DNA of 64,000 bases from Bacteroidota bacterium (GTDB lineage: Bacteria > Bacteroidota > Bacteroidia > Flavobacteriales_E > Vicingaceae): the NCBI GenBank assembly GCA_013112545.1, contig JABFGJ010000011.1:1-64000 (forward strand), in the 5' to 3' direction. The notes beneath the pieces were generated by a model. It worked only from the letters and a program-made list of their open reading frames with translations, had not been told where the DNA came from and searched no databases. This document shows, piece by piece, positions 53,737 to 64,000 of the stretch; within the stretch, counting starts at the first letter, position 1; every line of letters starts with the position of its first letter. The translations under genes were made by a program, and so were the position numbers.

Positions 53737-54557
53737 ATAGAAAACAACTTATAGAAGAAATAAAAAGCAAGCAGAGTTTTCTTTGTGTTGGATTGGATAC
53801 AGATATTACTAAAATACCCAAGCACTTATTAAGTTTAGATAATCCAATTTTAGAATTCAATAAGCAAATAATAGATGCCACCAAAGACTTCTGTGTTGCC
53901 TACAAACCAAACATCGCATTTTATGAATGTTTGGGTTCTAGAGGTTGGGATATACTTCAAGAAACACTAGCTTATATTCCAGATAATATTTTTACAATTG
54001 CCGATGCAAAGCGTGGTGATATTGGAAACACAGCTTCCATGTACGCCAAAACTTTTTTAGAGAAATACCAATTTGATTCGGTAACAGTTGCTCCATATAT
54101 GGGTAACGACTCGGTAAAGCCTTTTTTAGCTATACCAAATAAGTGGACTATTTTACTAGGCTTAACTTCAAATGAAGGAGCGCTTGATTTTCAATTTATA
54201 GAAGATAAATCAGGCCTGAAAGTGTATGAACATGTATTAAATACTTCAAAATCATGGGGTACTGTAGAAAATTTGATGTATGTAATTGGGGCAACAAAAG
54301 CAGAGTATTTTCAAAAAGTTCGAGCAATAATTCCAAATCACTTTTTATTGGTTCCAGGAGTTGGGGCTCAAGGTGGAAATTTACAAGATGTTTGTAAGCA
54401 GGGCATAAATTCAGATTGTGGATTATTGATTAATTCGTCAAGAGGAATTTTATACGCTTCACAGGATGAAGATTTTGCAGAAGTAGTCGCGATGAAAGCA
54501 AAAGAAATTCAACGAGAAATGTCCTTAATTTTGAAGCAATATCAAATCATAAGCTGA
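53733..54557 (+). CDS. pyrF: orotidine 5'-phosphate decarboxylase
   Basis: A 274-residue OMP decarboxylase of the longer type 2 group, making UMP from OMP in pyrimidine synthesis. The catalytic Lys/Asp tetrad lies in [40 protein letters not shown] is the opening phosphate-side strand, and [33 protein letters not shown] the closing part. It is coupled to prfA by a four-base overlap, and its last base is the first of the next gene's ATG (TGATG at 54555-54559). The prfA-pyrF linkage pairs translation with nucleotide supply. Confidence 0.96.
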
Positions 54558-55828
54558 TGAACGAAGATTTTCTCCACTATATATGGAAATTTCAAAGGTT
54601 TAATAAAAAGAATCTAAAATTAACTAGTGGAGAAAGCATAGAAATTATTCAGCCAGGAATTTTAAATACAGATTCAGGACCAGATTTTTTTAATGGTCAG
54701 ATCAAATTAAATTCAACCAAGTGGGCTGGTAATGTTGAAATACACAAACATTCAAGTGATTGGCTCAAGCATAAACATCAAGATGATTTAGCTTACGACA
54801 AAGTTATATTGCATGTCGTATGGATAGATGATACACCCATTAAACGATTGTCAGGTGAAGTTATTCCTTGCATAGAATTAAAGGGTTTGGTTAGCAAAGT
54901 CTTGCTAGAACAATATGATCAATTGCAGAAAGAATTCACATTAATTCCTTGTGAATCTAGTATAAAGTCGGTTGATTCTTTTATTATAGAAACCTTTTTA
55001 GAGCGTTTGGCATTTGAACGTTTAGAGCATAAATCGCAACGACTAAACCAATTGTTGAAATTGAATAAAAACGATTGGGAATCTACTTTATACCAAATGT
55101 TGGCCAAGTATTTCGGCTTTAAAGTAAATGCGATACCCTTTGAACTCTTGGCTCAGAGTTTACCTTATTCCATTATTCGAAAGCATGTTGGAAACTTATT
55201 TCAATTAGAAGCATTACTTTTTGGCCAAGCTGGATTGTTAGAAGGTGACTTTAAAGGAAATTATCCACGAGACTTACAACAAGAGTATCATTACTTAAAA
55301 GCAAAGTATCGTTTAAAAGCAATCGAACCATCTTTATGGAAGTTTATGCGAATGAGACCTGTTAACTTTCCAAGTATTAGAATTGCTCAATTTGCTGCTT
55401 TATTAAATGAGAAGAAAGCTCTATTTGAATCTATTGTTAATGAAAATGAAGTGCAACAGCTCGAAAAAACGTTTTCTGTGTCAGCTTCAGCATATTGGGA
55501 CTCACATTTTAGATTTGACAAACCTGCCGCTAATAAACGTTCTAAAAAATTAGGTGTATTAGCAATAAACACGTTGTTAATTAATTCGATTATTCCTTTA
55601 ATATTCAATTATGCCAAACAAAAGGGAGACGGTGAATTAAGCGAAAGAGCTTTGTTTTTTTTAACTCAGTTTAAGCCTGAAAAAAATAAAATTACAAGGC
55701 TTTGGAGCCATTTCAACATACAGGCTGATAATGCTCAACAAAGTCAAGCTTTAATTGAATTAAAAACAAATTATTGTGATTTAAAAAAATGTCTAAATTG
55801 CAGTATTGGAAATTCTATCTTAAAATGA
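54557..55828 (+). CDS. DUF2851 family protein
   Basis: A 423-residue cytoplasmic protein of the Bacteroidota-specific DUF2851 family. The N-terminal part is typical: DFLHYIWKFQRF, EIIQPGILNTDSGPDFFNGQI, WAGNVEIHKHSSDWLKHKH, and YDKVILHVVWIDD. The acidic and histidine residues in GPDFF...GNVEIH could form a nuclease-like active site; this is inference. The rest is mostly helical and ends with a short Cys-rich tail (CDLKKCLNCSIG) reminiscent of the family's C-terminus. Function is not established. It overlaps pyrF by one base and PspC by four. Confidence 0.85.
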   Translation: MNEDFLHYIWKFQRFNKKNLKLTSGESIEIIQPGILNTDSGPDFFNGQIKLNSTKWAGNVEIHKHSSDWLKHKHQDDLAYDKVILHVVWIDDTPIKRLSGEVIPCIELKGLVSKVLLEQYDQLQKEFTLIPCESSIKSVDSFIIETFLERLAFERLEHKSQRLNQLLKLNKNDWESTLYQMLAKYFGFKVNAIPFELLAQSLPYSIIRKHVGNLFQLEALLFGQAGLLEGDFKGNYPRDLQQEYHYLKAKYRLKAIEPSLWKFMRMRPVNFPSIRIAQFAALLNEKKALFESIVNENEVQQLEKTFSVSASAYWDSHFRFDKPAANKRSKKLGVLAINTLLINSIIPLIFNYAKQKGDGELSERALFFLTQFKPEKNKITRLWSHFNIQADNAQQSQALIELKTNYCDLKKCLNCSIGNSILK

Positions 55829-56058
55829 AAATGATGATAACAAAAATTCATGATTACTTTGAGCGTAAAGCCTTTGGTGTTTGTGAGTGGTGGGGGCTAA
55901 AATTAGGCCTCAAAACCAGTCGAATTAGACTGTTTTTCATTTACTTTTCATTTATCACCTTCGGCTCGCCACTATTAATTTATTTGATAATGGCATTTAT
56001 TTTAGAACATAAATACTTCTTTAAACTCAAAAGAAGAAATACAATCTGGGACCTCTAA
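55825..56058 (+). CDS. small PspC-domain membrane protein
   Basis: A 77-residue protein made almost entirely of a PspC domain: FGVCEWWGLKLGLKTSRIRLFFIYFSF followed by FGSPLLIYLIMAFILEH, giving one membrane-spanning segment, perhaps two. PspC in proteobacteria regulates the phage-shock response at the inner membrane; Bacteroidota often have stubs like this. I used the ATG at 55825, which overlaps the DUF2851 stop as ATGA. A start at 55789 would lengthen the overlap, and the ATG at 55831 is also possible. It is ten bases upstream of the K+ channel gene. Confidence 0.75.
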   Translation: MKMMITKIHDYFERKAFGVCEWWGLKLGLKTSRIRLFFIYFSFITFGSPLLIYLIMAFILEHKYFFKLKRRNTIWDL

Positions 56059-56068
56059 ATTTTCAATT

Positions 56069-57070
56069 TTGTTTCGTTTAAAACAATTCCGAAAACTATA
56101 CTATGCACTCATTGTGTTTATTATCATTTGTTTGCTCGGTGTTTTAGGCTTTTCGTTTATAGAAGGATATACAATATCAGAAGCAATTTACATGACCATT
56201 ATAACTGTGTCAACAGTTGGTTTTCAAGAAGTACGACCCCTAACAGATTCTGGTAGATTTTTTACTTCCATTTTAATCCTAACCAGTTTTGGTACATTTG
56301 CTTATGTTGCAAGCGTATTCTCAAACTATCTTTCTGACGGTGAACTAAGAAGGCATTTTACGAGGTTAAAAAAGATGAAAAAGATAAACAAATTAGAAAA
56401 TCACATAATTATATGTGGGTTTGGAAGAAATGGAAAGCAAATTCTTCATGAAATTGAATCATCTCATACGCCATATATCATTATTGAACATGCGCATGAC
56501 ATTGTTGAAGAGCTTTCTATGTCGAATAAGAACTATATAGAAGGAGATGCAACTGATGACAAAGTGTTAATTAATGCTGGTATTAATCGTGCTAAAGCTT
56601 TGGTTACAACTTTGCCCGATGACGCTGAAAATGTGTTTGTTGTGTTAACTGCACGTGAAATGAACCCTCAATTGCTAATTATTAGTAGGGCTTCAAAAGA
56701 TTCATCGGATAAAAAATTAAGAATGGCTGGAGCAAACAATGTTGTAATGCCCGATAAAGTTGGCGGAACTCATATGGCTTCATTAGTTATAAAGCCAGAT
56801 GTAGTTGAATTTTTTAATCACTTAACTGGGCAAGACAATAATATTTCTATAGAAGAAATTACCTACGAAAGTTTGCCTAAGGAATTTAAGAATAAATCAA
56901 TCGCAGATTTAGAAATTCGAAAAAGATCAGGAGCAAATATCGTTGGATTAAAAACAGAAGAAGGAGAATACATATTAAATCCTGCTCCGGAAACAATTAT
57001 AAATGAGGGAACGAAACTTTTTGTTTTGGGTATGGTCAATCAAATAGAAGATTTATTAAAATGGGAGTAA
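56069..57070 (+). CDS. potassium channel with RCK (TrkA) domains
   Basis: A 333-residue two-helix K+ channel. Transmembrane helix 1 is at about 10-30, the pore helix at 40-48, the selectivity filter TVGFQ at 49-53, and helix 2 at about 65-87. A cytoplasmic RCK N domain follows (IIICGFGRNGKQILHEIE, with the Rossmann GxGxxG at 117-122, then GDATDDKVLINAGI and RAKALVTTLPDDAENV), and an RCK C domain from about 240 to the end. The architecture is that of MthK. Position 53 is Gln where canonical filters have Gly (TVGYG). The start is a TTG at 56069, there being no suitable ATG. It overlaps the next gene by ten bases. Confidence 0.87.
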   Translation: MFRLKQFRKLYYALIVFIIICLLGVLGFSFIEGYTISEAIYMTIITVSTVGFQEVRPLTDSGRFFTSILILTSFGTFAYVASVFSNYLSDGELRRHFTRLKKMKKINKLENHIIICGFGRNGKQILHEIESSHTPYIIIEHAHDIVEELSMSNKNYIEGDATDDKVLINAGINRAKALVTTLPDDAENVFVVLTAREMNPQLLIISRASKDSSDKKLRMAGANNVVMPDKVGGTHMASLVIKPDVVEFFNHLTGQDNNISIEEITYESLPKEFKNKSIADLEIRKRSGANIVGLKTEEGEYILNPAPETIINEGTKLFVLGMVNQIEDLLKWE

Positions 57071-58047: not shown

Positions 58048-60114
58048 ATGCATAAACATTTACTCACAATTGTATCATTTTTTATTACTATAACAATTAA
58101 TGCTAGCAGTTTTGAAGCGGTTTTAAAAATTGATAATCCTTCTGCAAAAATCAACGACGGAGTAGCGTATGTTGAAGTAAATGGTGGCATATCACCTTAT
58201 ACTTATAAATGGTCAAAGCAAGACACAAAACTAAGCTCTAGCTCTTGTGAAAACCTTACAGAAGGCAGCACTTTTAGTGTAGTGGTTACAGATGCACGTG
58301 GAGAAAGTATTACCCTTAAAGGGAAAGTTGATCCTAAATCTGCTGAAGAAAATATAAATAGCTTTTTTGTCCCGATAGTAGAAGTGATGTCAGATCTTTT
58401 GTTTTCTGACCCTTTTTCAGCTATAGGTATTTACGACCCAGTTGTATATGCAGATCAAAAAAATGTAAAAGCTCCAGGTTGGACTAATCCAGAGGTTCAA
58501 AAAATATCGCTTCAAGAATGGATAGTAGCTGAAGGAGAACATGTGAACAATGGCGATTTAATCGCTGTGGTTTCTCAAGACAAAAAAAATGAAGTAAATG
58601 TATATGCAAATGCTAGTGGAAAATTAAAGCATTTAACCAAACAAGGTAAAATTATTTATGATGCAAATAACGTAGAACACATTATTGAAGTAGGCGCAGA
58701 AAATTTAGCTTCAATAATTTATGATAAACCTCTGCCAGTACTTCACCCAAATGGAGACCAACAAAAGAAGGGAATTCCATTTATAGTGGTTTGGTTAGTT
58801 CTTGGCGCAATTTTCTTTACTGTACGAATGCGCTTTATAAATGCCAAAGGCTTGAAACATGCAGTGGATTTGGTCAAAGGTAAATACGATGACCCTAAAG
58901 CTTGCACTGGAGAAGTTTCTCATTTTCAAGCATTGACAACGGCGCTTTCTGCTACAGTTGGTTTAGGAAATATAGCTGGTGTAGCAGTTGCCATTTCTTT
59001 AGGAGGACCAGGCGCCACATTTTGGATGATTATTGCTGGTTTAATTGGGATGTCATCTAAATTCGTAGAATGTACTTTAGGCGTAAAGTATAGAAAAGTA
59101 AACGAAAAAGGAGAAGTTTCTGGAGGGCCAATGTATTATTTAACGGAAGGACTAAAGAAAAAAAACATGGGTGGGCTTGGAAAAGTTTTAGCTGTTATTT
59201 TTGCTATTTTATGCATCGGTGGATCTTTTGGCGGTGGTAATATGTTTCAGTCGAATCAAGCATTTGCTCAGTTATCTTCTGAATTTCCTTCAATACAAGG
59301 TATGGGACTTCTATTTGGATTTGTCTTGGCATTATTAGTCGGCATTGTTATCGTTGGAGGAATTAAGAGCATTGCTAAAGTAACTGACAAAATCGTTCCT
59401 TTTATGGCAGGTCTTTATGTTCTGTTTTCGCTGATTATTATCGGAATGAATTTCGCTAATGTAGGAGATGTTTTCTATGAAATTTATAATGGAGCTTTTA
59501 ATTCCCCAGCAATAAAAGGTGGAGTTATTGGAGTCTTAATTGTAGGTTTTCAACGAGCGGCATTTTCTAATGAGGCTGGTGTTGGTTCTGCCTCAATTGC
59601 CCATTCTGCCTCTAAAACAGATGAGCCTGTAAGTGAGGGAATAGTAGCGCTTTTAGAACCTTTTATTGATACGGTAGTGGTTTGTACTATGACTGCTTTA
59701 GTTTTAGTTTTTACCGGTTATGCTGACGGATCTACGAATATAGAAGGAGCGGAACTTACCTCTGCTGCTTTTGGAAGTGTTTTTCCTTGGTTTACATATG
59801 TATTGGTTATAGCCATTTTCTTATTTGCTTTTTCTACTATGATTTCTTGGTCGTATTATGGTATGAAAGCTTGGGCTTACCTTTTTGGCAATAGTAAAAA
59901 AGCTGAAAACATCTATAAAGTTATTTTCTTGTGTTTTATCATGGTTGGTTCTTCTGCCGAATTAGGTGCTGTTTTAGATTTTTCTGACCTTATGATTCTC
60001 GGTATGGCATTTCCAAATATCTTAGGATTAGTGATCCTATCTAAGGAGGTTAAGTTAGATATGATTTCTTACTTTGCAAGGGTTAAGTCTGGTGAAATTA
60101 AAAAATTCAAATAA
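58048..60114 (+). CDS. alanine/sodium symporter (AGCS) with periplasmic SprB-like and lipoyl-like domains
   Basis: A 688-residue protein. Residues 243-688 are a full AGCS-family Na+/alanine symporter: [60 protein letters not shown] and [18 protein letters not shown], with about ten helices. The first 240 residues are unusual. They comprise a signal peptide (1-20), an SprB-repeat-like stretch at about 37-93 ([17 protein letters not shown]), a hydrophobic helix at about 105-122 resembling the first helix of ordinary AGCS proteins, and a lipoyl/biotinyl-like hammerhead at about 138-220. The last has [19 protein letters not shown], Lys at 179-180, and NASGKLKHL. The symporter core is ordinary; the extension's role is unknown. 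Confidence 0.85.
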
Positions 60115-60777
60115 GTGAAAAAGATATTTTATTTATTGCTCGGTTTTTTATTTTTAAGCGCCTGTTCTGATGAAACTATCGTAAATGAAGTCTCTGGAAC
60201 AATTTATAAAAACTGCGATAACTCAACTTACGGCTATGCAGAAATTGCATTGAAAACAAACCGTGGGGGCAGTTTTTCAGATCCTATAATTTTAGGAGGT
60301 GATGTTGCAAATGGTGATGGATATTTTCAATTTACTTATGAATTAAAAGAAAGTGAAAAAGGAACTGCTGAATTAATTCTATCTAATCCTGATGGATATA
60401 CAGTTCTTTTAGATGACCTTCCATTAAATAGAGACATTAAAACCAATATTTACATCGAGAATAAAAGTCCTGTTTCTATTAAACTATCGGGTAGTAGAGT
60501 ATTTCAAATTACTGATACTCTATTTATTGGTGTAAAAAATACTAGTATAAAAGAACAAGTAGTACAACCAACAAACGGCGTAATAGCTACATTAAAAATA
60601 AACGTACCAAATGAATATAAATCGACTACTCAAAAAACAATATACTACGGTGTAGGAACATCTGATTTTCAGAAATCAAAAGATGCATTAAGCATTCCTG
60701 ATTCAGTTTATCAACATGTTTCACTACAATTAAAAGGCTGTGATGTTTCAGAGCAAGTTGATTTGACAATCAACTAA
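60115..60777 (+). CDS. lipoprotein of unknown function
   Basis: A 220-residue lipoprotein with signal IFYLLLGFLFLSAC, the Cys at residue 17. The mature part is beta-rich; the first section (SGTIYKNCDNSTYGYAEIALKTNRGG) resembles an Ig- or carboxypeptidase-regulatory-like domain, but I do not recognise the family. It starts with GTG directly after the symporter stop codon; the signal peptide supports this start. It probably sits in the inner leaflet of the outer membrane. Co-transcription with the symporter is likely. Confidence 0.7.
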   Translation: MKKIFYLLLGFLFLSACSDETIVNEVSGTIYKNCDNSTYGYAEIALKTNRGGSFSDPIILGGDVANGDGYFQFTYELKESEKGTAELILSNPDGYTVLLDDLPLNRDIKTNIYIENKSPVSIKLSGSRVFQITDTLFIGVKNTSIKEQVVQPTNGVIATLKINVPNEYKSTTQKTIYYGVGTSDFQKSKDALSIPDSVYQHVSLQLKGCDVSEQVDLTIN

Positions 60778-63457: not shown

Positions 63458-63498
63458 AAAAGGGAAGCATTATCGTATCAAGGTAATGTTTCCCTTTT
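63458..63498. terminator. bidirectional intrinsic terminator
   Basis: A 15-bp stem (63458-63472 with 63484-63498, one G-T pair) with an 11-base loop, A4 on the left and T5 on the right. The right half lies in the last codons of the convergent CHU_C gene, whose stop is at 63470-63472. Confidence 0.87.
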
Positions 63499-64000
63499 TG
63501 CTTAATACTTTATTTCCAAAAGTTAAAGCTTCTACAGTATAAACATACGTTTCTATCGCTTGAGGATTTCCTTTGTATGTACCATCCCAGCCAACTTCAA
63601 ATTGATTGGACTCAAAAATCAACTCGCCAAATCGATTGTAAATTTTAAATGCAATTAGTTCTTTTAATCCCCAACCTTTTGCAAAAATGACATCGTTAAT
63701 ATGATCTCCATTTGGACTAAATGCCTTTGGCACATCCAAGGAGTATTTCTCATCAACCGACACATTTAGAGTGTCTAAAATGTTAAAACATCCAAAATCA
63801 TCAAAAATGTGAATGAAGTAAGTTCTATTTTGAAGGGGTTGTATTGTAGGATTATAGCAATCTGTACAGCTTAATCCATCTGGTGGCGACCATCTATAAT
63901 TGAAATTTTTACCTACATAAATATTTCCAAGTATCTGCTCGCCAATAATCAAACTCGTATCGTTTATAGTAAACCCAAGTGGGATTTTTGGGACAATGAC
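63470..64000 (-). CDS. T9SS protein with gliding-motility C-terminal domain, partial
   Basis: The C-terminal 176 residues of a larger exported protein whose frame is open to the window edge; an internal TTG at 63952 is not its start. A PKD-like module comes first (about residues 36-83 of the fragment: YRWSPPDGLSCTDCYNPTI, NRTYFIHIFDDFGCF), a pair that normally ends long repeat proteins. The last 85 residues are a CHU_C domain: VPKAFSPNGDHINDVIF, FKIYNRFGELIFESNQ, GWDGTYKGNPQAIETYVYTVEA and a final KGNITLIR. The protein should be exported through T9SS to the cell surface. Size and function are unknown because the 5' part lies outside the window. Confidence 0.9.
   Translation of the reverse strand, partial: VIVPKIPLGFTINDTSLIIGEQILGNIYVGKNFNYRWSPPDGLSCTDCYNPTIQPLQNRTYFIHIFDDFGCFNILDTLNVSVDEKYSLDVPKAFSPNGDHINDVIFAKGWGLKELIAFKIYNRFGELIFESNQFEVGWDGTYKGNPQAIETYVYTVEALTFGNKVLSKKGNITLIR

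Follow-up and report, generated by a model that had tools for sequence, protein, structure and literature searches.

Symporters of the AGCS family (TC 2.A.25), represented by MmAgcS (PDB 6cse/6csf), have an odd number of membrane spans, and their first transmembrane helix (TM1) sits outside the LeuT-fold core. AgcS is found among the LeuT-fold structures listed in PMC10862720. Lipoyl domains in the vicinity of transporters are described for periplasmic adaptor proteins: according to PMC8277102 they stabilise self-assembly, appear to make no contact with the transporter in those RND and MacB assemblies that have been studied, and form a gating ring in MacA. The window analysed here, a stretch of DNA of 64,000 nucleotides, encodes a predicted AGCS symporter with a lipoyl-type domain placed ahead of TM1 in the same chain. 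The features referred to below are:

58048..60114, + strand: gene for an AGCS-family sodium:alanine symporter of 688 aa with a multidomain N-terminus (open reading frame, profile matches)
58048..58107, + strand: signal-peptide-like start, residues 1-20 (read from the sequence by eye)
58108..58332, + strand: single SprB-like/Ig-like domain, residues about 21-95 (weak Pfam match, model strands)
58342..58401, + strand: helix ahead of the insert, residues 99-118, amphipathic by eye (full-length model; aligned in relatives)
58429..58449, + strand: left edge of the insertion site, IYDPVVY, residues 128-134 (alignment of relatives)
58456..58725, + strand: lipoyl-type domain, residues about 137-226 (Pfam, A2 profile, model, Foldseek)
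58579..58587, + strand: codons 178-180 (D-K-K) of the hairpin turn, where real carriers have their modified Lys (model, family alignment)
58735..58758, + strand: right edge of the insertion site, PVLHPNGD, residues 230-237 (alignment of relatives)
58774..60111, + strand: AGCS transporter core from TM1 on, residues 243-688 (Pfam, NCBIfam, PDB profile and structure matches)
60115..60777, + strand: gene for a small lipoprotein-like product (LSAC motif), its GTG start codon immediately behind the stop of the symporter gene (open reading frame, tblastn)

A single open frame (58048-60114) encodes all 688 residues and is the only AGCS match returned by a genome-wide search. Pfam Na_Ala_symp (PF01235) covers residues 284-684 at 427.4 bits (cut-off 24, E 8.3e-128), TIGR00835 covers residues 246-671 at 417.9 bits (cut-off 272.65), and in a PDB profile search residues 244-684 align to chain residues 17-450 of MmAgcS 6cse (E 1.2e-97). 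The same structure is the top match of the full-length model in Foldseek (E 1.2e-18) and in the VIA structure comparison (Z 18.5, rmsd 4.2, 346 aligned), the rows of which mostly cover residues 321-675 and barely test the N-terminal domains; identity of the core to MmAgcS is 41-42% in the Foldseek alignments and 36% in the VIA alignment. A LeuT-type fold like that of MmAgcS is recovered in a model that is weak overall (pLDDT 57.6, pTM 0.46), much of the core lying at pLDDT <60. The protein had been called an alanine/sodium symporter in an initial sequence-only reading, and these matches bear that out: it is predicted to be a Na+-coupled alanine/glycine symporter of the AGCS family. An Rfam search of the window gave 0 matches.

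The N-terminal arm opens with the signal-peptide-like start, and lipoyl-bearing relatives begin with a similar hydrophobic stretch in the alignment. Pfam SprB (PF13573) matches residues 36-58 of the window protein at 17.1 bits, under its cut-off of 28; among seven relatives scanned one is over the cut-off (L002, 28.7), five are under it and L013 is unlisted. The label SprB-like is nevertheless a fair one, because all eight members of alignment A1 match SprB at E <= 0.1, the best at E 1e-6. The full-length model folds the region into strands with a block pLDDT of 67-81. A PDB search with the SprB-like profile returns neck and decoration proteins of phages (best E 1.9e-6), and in a viral fold library SprB-repeat and lipoyl-type proteins occur among the weak matches, as expected. 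The SprB-like repeat first proposed for residues 37-93 thus stands as to identity, with its limits moved to about 21-95. The SprB adhesin of gliding bacteria itself combines a long repeat array with a type IX secretion C-terminal domain; an SprB-type adhesin is rejected here, the window protein having a single SprB match, a symporter as its C-terminus and no sorting-domain match in Pfam at E <= 10.

The helix that the sequence-only reading placed next and called hydrophobic is present in the model at residues 99-118; by eye it looks amphipathic, unlike a membrane span. The signal-peptide-like start, a basic stretch after TM1 and the odd number of spans would together place the whole arm outside the cytoplasm, i.e. 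in the periplasm. As a separate observation, most AGCS relatives without extra domains (L026-L029, L032-L033, L035-L038 and others; not L030 and L034) likewise have a signal-peptide-like stretch and a helix at their start. Export of the N-terminus may thus be widespread in AGCS proteins of the class.

Between this helix and TM1 lies the lipoyl-type domain. Pfam Biotin_lipoyl (PF00364) matches residues 155-202 at 28.8 bits, over the curated cut-off of 22.1; a scan of four domain-bearing relatives put L003 (24.1) and L013 (28.1) above the cut-off and L018 (16.8) under it, with L001 unlisted. The match exceeds what chance would give: a 15-row profile of the region (A2) retrieves E2 lipoyl domains from the PDB, namely 8piu (pyruvate dehydrogenase E2) at the top with E 6.1e-6, a two-domain sum of which the better domain alone has an i-Evalue of 0.14, and the single lipoyl domains 1k8m (branched-chain E2, E 2.4e-4) and 2dnc (0.0013); the first biotin carrier, 1z6h, follows after the E2 matches at 0.031. 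The genome itself holds 21 Biotin_lipoyl matches, eight of them over the cut-off singly (one being the symporter gene) and one more together with its neighbours. On six other carrier-type proteins of this genome, which we assign to types by their motifs, the A2 profile scores 22.9, 15.7, 14.1 and 12.4 bits for the presumed E2-type and 3.7 and 2.2 bits for the presumed biotin-carrier-type proteins. Weaker A2 matches in 46 genomes of the order are mostly frames of 399-440 aa, the rest being 205 or 534-560 aa long. Nineteen such loci, of E2 type, were examined and match the profile, by construction as they were collected with the profile itself; the PDB and own-genome comparisons are less bound to it. 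The alignments examined for part of these loci span the E2 DK motif.

The full-length model has strands at 134-140, 152-158, 171-177, 181-186, 191-195, 202-205 and 221-230; residues 179-180 belong to the hairpin turn that follows 177. The blocks covering residues 151-200 have a pLDDT of 80-86, the flanking blocks 131-150 and 201-230 one of 53-78. Foldseek aligns the domain over 94 columns to 3crk_C, the L2 lipoyl domain of human PDC-E2 (TMt 0.75, rmsd 3.7, E 0.025), and also lists several biotin-dependent carboxylases. Strand pattern and 3crk_C match agree with a barrel-sandwich (hammerhead) fold, whereas residues 128-241 modelled alone with a 5-row alignment gave a mean pLDDT of 37.8 and no usable fold. 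The hammerhead for which structure prediction had been proposed as the check is recovered in the full-length model, over about 137-226 instead of 138-220, and profiles and model point to a lipoyl-type fold that is nearest to E2 lipoyl domains.

The E2 domains that are its nearest relatives, and the DKK of the window protein at the hairpin turn, would fit a real carrier with K179 or K180 lipoylated or otherwise modified. Six of six other carrier-type proteins printed from the same genome keep DK or MK. Against a carrier, Lys at 178-180 is found in four of 22 distinct lipoyl-bearing sequences (the window protein, i.e. L009, L069, L072 and L074; 22 of 23, L098 being left out) and is lacking in the other 18. 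By position, Lys stands at 179 in two and at 180 in two; it occurs at 181 in two more (L012, L018), which leaves 16 of the 22 without Lys anywhere in 178-181. The hairpin of the family profile is one residue longer than that of E2, and the domain lies downstream of a signal-peptide-like start, whereas known lipoyl ligases are cytoplasmic. A carrier is therefore highly improbable, and that function is rejected for the family. As the family has not kept the cofactor lysine, the domain would not carry lipoate, and the DKK of the window protein appears as an exception within its family. The absence of lipoylation expected in the sequence-only reading agrees with these counts; the lysine pair singled out there does lie at the hairpin turn but is not conserved, and a special role for it is not supported.

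The full domain occurs in AGCS frames in 11 of the 46 genomes of the order, in 9/395 genomes of a class sample (E <= 1e-12) and in 8/395 genomes of a phylum sample (E <= 1e-9), these samples overlapping and including the window genome. The domain-bearing frames are 691-723 aa long and belong to families f1, f20 and f54 of the window class; judging from named relatives (Lutibacter, Flavobacteriaceae, uncultured Flavobacteriales), the class is probably Bacteroidia and f1 probably lies within Flavobacteriales. AGCS proteins as such are present in at least 109 of the 395 class genomes, a lower bound as two candidates were scored per genome. The lipoyl-bearing layout is rare in the class. A mis-assembly or frameshift fusion of two genes has nothing in its favour except the oddity of the layout; the 22 distinct sequences that share it, the lipoyl-bearing genome matches listed without internal stops and the similar gene neighbourhood in most loci examined speak against such an artefact. 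We reject it, its probability being negligible.

Residues 134 and 230 bound the domain, which is set into a short YDPVVY...LHPNGD linker and ends about 18 residues ahead of the TM1 helix in the model. Four f1 proteins without the domain keep YDPVVY (to 134; YNPVVY in L020) and LHPNG (from 232), VVY being separated from the VLHPNG strand by about 4-6 residues, and L002 and L006 keep a variant of both edges. An insertion before TM1 on the presumed outer side, as originally proposed, is supported, and its edges are clean in the alignment with the domain-less f1 relatives. In a lipoyl domain the first strand neighbours the last, so that such a domain suits insertion into a hairpin turn.

Other regions occupy the same place elsewhere. 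In L080 and L082 (families f5 and f56) a stretch of about 70-80 residues without resemblance to the lipoyl domain separates YDPVVY from TM1; the two stretches share 26/97 identical residues, edges included (E 7e-12 in a two-sequence comparison), and the A2 profile matches both proteins in the YDPVVY edge only, so that on the present match these inserts are not shown to be lipoyl domains. L105 and L106 (f2) have a different region of about 170 residues between helix and TM1. Pfam returned nothing over a cut-off on the L080, L082 and L105 stretches; in PHROGs the L080 insert has no match and the L082 insert four weak ones (best E 0.03), one of them a tail fibre. Apart from the lipoyl type, the stretch before TM1 has thus acquired regions of at least two other kinds. 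The long region between helix and TM1 is also present in a third f2 protein, L115; in the N-terminal 170-255 aa of these three proteins we observed FYDNPPF (L105) or similar motifs (L106, L115).

Phylogenetic trees were built from the fetched loci, a part of all listed matches. Four ORF fragments of <430 aa (L090, L087, L086, L004) and rows with identical last 300 residues were left out beforehand; the trees use 74 of 76 rows, without L098 (a truncated copy of L072) and L004 (disrupted), and L008 and L021/L129, having the same protein score, count as one case. In the tree of 74 cores, four SprB-only f1 rows nest inside the f1 lipoyl-bearing rows. The fork of L017, L023, L014, L020, L008 and L022 has a support of 100/99, and two inner forks are weaker. 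The AU test rejects (p 0.001) a clade that unites the 11 lipoyl-bearing f1 rows and leaves out the SprB-only ones, a grouping defined by layout after the tree had been viewed, while a single loss for the four SprB-only f1 rows is allowed (AU p 0.44). The domain was hence lost at least once inside f1, with the SprB-like domain retained. In the free tree L080 and plain rows stand between the two lipoyl-bearing clades, and a clade uniting the four SprB-only f1 rows with all 22 is allowed (AU p 0.16); a single origin for all 22 lipoyl-bearing sequences is neither shown nor rejected by these trees. A quick tree of the domain itself has the same split between f1 and non-f1 sequences (SH-aLRT 98); it divides like the core groups, and therefore no recent exchange is seen.

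Among the 11 f1 sequences the core is on average 85% identical, the domain 60% and the SprB-like domain 54.5%. The dN/dS of the domain is 0.04-0.20 in the six of ten pairs with finite dS, rough values as dS exceeds 1 in five of these six, and dS is saturated in the other four. The arm thus evolves faster than the core and yet seems to be constrained. This bears on the view that the insert is a nearly neutral leftover, tolerated as a lipoyl domain fits a hairpin turn without disturbing its host: its divergence relative to the core, its loss inside f1 and the other inserts before TM1 would all agree with that. The low dN/dS in the measurable pairs and the retention of the domain in 11 f1 and 11 other sequences point the other way, as do W158, G163, G191 and Y225, which are invariant in the 15 A2 rows (W158 and G163 vary in some of the wider set of 22). 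We consider near-neutrality unlikely.

Gene neighbourhoods were compared by tblastn (E <= 1e-5) at 14 f1 loci and ten others (L001, L002, L003, L005, L132-L137); the names PspC-like, apt and acyl-CoA dehydrogenase are those we presume for the genes concerned. All 14 f1 loci have DUF2851, the PspC-like gene, an RmlD-like gene, AGCS, an HHH protein, apt and acyl-CoA dehydrogenase, with a K+ channel with TrkA domains in 11/14 and the lipoprotein in 12/14. At eight of the ten other loci AGCS is preceded by the PspC-like gene and followed by the HHH gene, while L002 has the HHH gene only and L132 (f20) neither; the L080 genome has most of the window gene neighbourhood (locus L137). From the similar surroundings in most loci, the gene appears to have been inherited vertically at one locus in f1, in f54 and among the named Flavobacteriaceae, a pattern not shown for f20. 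The lipoprotein-like gene was detected at none of the ten other loci; as a fixed partner of the domain it is rejected, being present beside all four domain-less f1 symporters and undetected beside the domain-bearing L120 and L127. Within the window, DUF2851, the PspC-like gene and the K+ channel with TrkA domains form a run ahead of AGCS (54557-57070, + strand) that recurs wholly or partly in other families. A frame at 63470-63952 on the - strand looks, by its motif, like the C-terminal end of a type IX secreted protein.

We propose that the signal peptide exports the N-terminus of the symporter, which would then stay in the periplasm as an arm carrying the SprB/Ig-like domain, the helix and, in the short linker before TM1, the E2-related lipoyl-type domain. 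The latter would be a recruited carrier domain, unmodified, in a site that we call tolerant because of the other inserts before TM1 in L080/L082 and L105/L106. It is predicted to act on the periplasmic face as a passive module for protein-protein docking, self-association or spacing, and might tune where or with whom the symporter sits, neither catalysing nor gating transport. Docking or self-association is favoured by analogy with the unmodified lipoyl domains of periplasmic adaptor proteins. This analogy is loose, because adaptor lipoyl domains seem to be off the transporter, and in MacA they gate. The domain may be called dispensable as SprB-only f1 rows nest among domain-bearing ones. Several observations count against docking: no neighbour gene follows the domain among the loci examined, its loss in relatives fits a near-neutral insert too, residues 179 and 180 are both Lys in the window protein, and the full-length model is weak and the standalone model of the domain failed. 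Periplasmic side and docking or spacer role both being inferred, we hold the reading as a whole, i.e. an AGCS symporter with a lysine-less E2-related lipoyl-type module for periplasmic docking, self-association or spacing, with moderate confidence.

The sequence-only reading had mentioned gating beside binding. Direct regulation of transport by a domain capping or gating the outer vestibule would suit a module ending this close to TM1, presumably on the substrate-entry side, and has a parallel in the gating ring that adaptor lipoyl domains of the MacA family form according to PMC8277102. Four f1 relatives without the domain keep the rest of the protein, which speaks against an essential part in transport, and other lineages have unrelated inserts or none at the site. 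No reliable placement of the domain is found in the model, and the position of TM1 outside the LeuT-fold core likewise argues against gating. A gating role finds no support in these comparisons and is quite unlikely. Beyond the docking, self-association or spacer module that we favour, it is possible, if doubtful, that in AGCS symporters of this class a socket lies between the exported helix and TM1, in which unrelated small domains (the lysine-less E2-related lipoyl domain and the inserts of L080/L082 and L105/L106) have been placed and swapped; the symporter would then be an envelope docking platform tying alanine/glycine uptake to periplasmic or outer-membrane partners.

The layout noted in the sequence-only reading is confirmed, on more evidence than the sequence by itself could give. 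The protein offers a clear case of a carrier-type domain minus its carrier lysine built into a secondary transporter; knowledge of alanine transport itself is unchanged by it. The relatives form a natural series (with the domain, with the domain lost, with a different insert and with no insert), and the role of the module is therefore directly testable. No description of an AGCS symporter with an inserted lipoyl-type domain was found in the listed titles and abstract beginnings of the open-licence literature.

Compared with known systems, the window protein has the core in common with MmAgcS and the AGCS family and lies over both the Pfam and the NCBIfam cut-offs. It adds a signal-peptide-like start and two predicted domains; the MmAgcS match begins at chain residue 17, whereas the window protein has 242 residues ahead of residue 243, and the remark of the sequence-only reading that in ordinary AGCS proteins the first helix leads almost straight into the next is to this extent fair. 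The SprB-only relatives (L008, L020, L022, L023, L002, L006) have the core, SprB-like domain, helix and linker edges as in the window, and the four f1 members among them also its gene order; they differ in being without the lipoyl-type domain, in place of which the f1 members carry the few linker residues described above. E2 lipoyl domains of 2-oxoacid dehydrogenase complexes are the best profile matches of the domain both in the PDB and among the six printed proteins of its own genome, and their strand and hairpin layout is compatible with it, whereas the window domain probably lies outside the cytoplasm and its carrier lysine is not conserved. The MexA/MacA adaptors, as described in PMC8277102, share a lipoyl-type fold in the periplasm beside a transporter, as proposed for the window protein, and the Pfam family Biotin_lipoyl_2 matches 4/8 members of A1 (best E 3e-4), under its cut-off in the members printed. 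These adaptors are separate proteins with an alpha-hairpin, of which residues 137-226 of the model have no counterpart beyond a 4-residue helix, whereas the window domain is part of the transporter chain and closer to E2 in sequence. The protein thus presents an unusual domain layout within a known transporter family and not a new kind of system.
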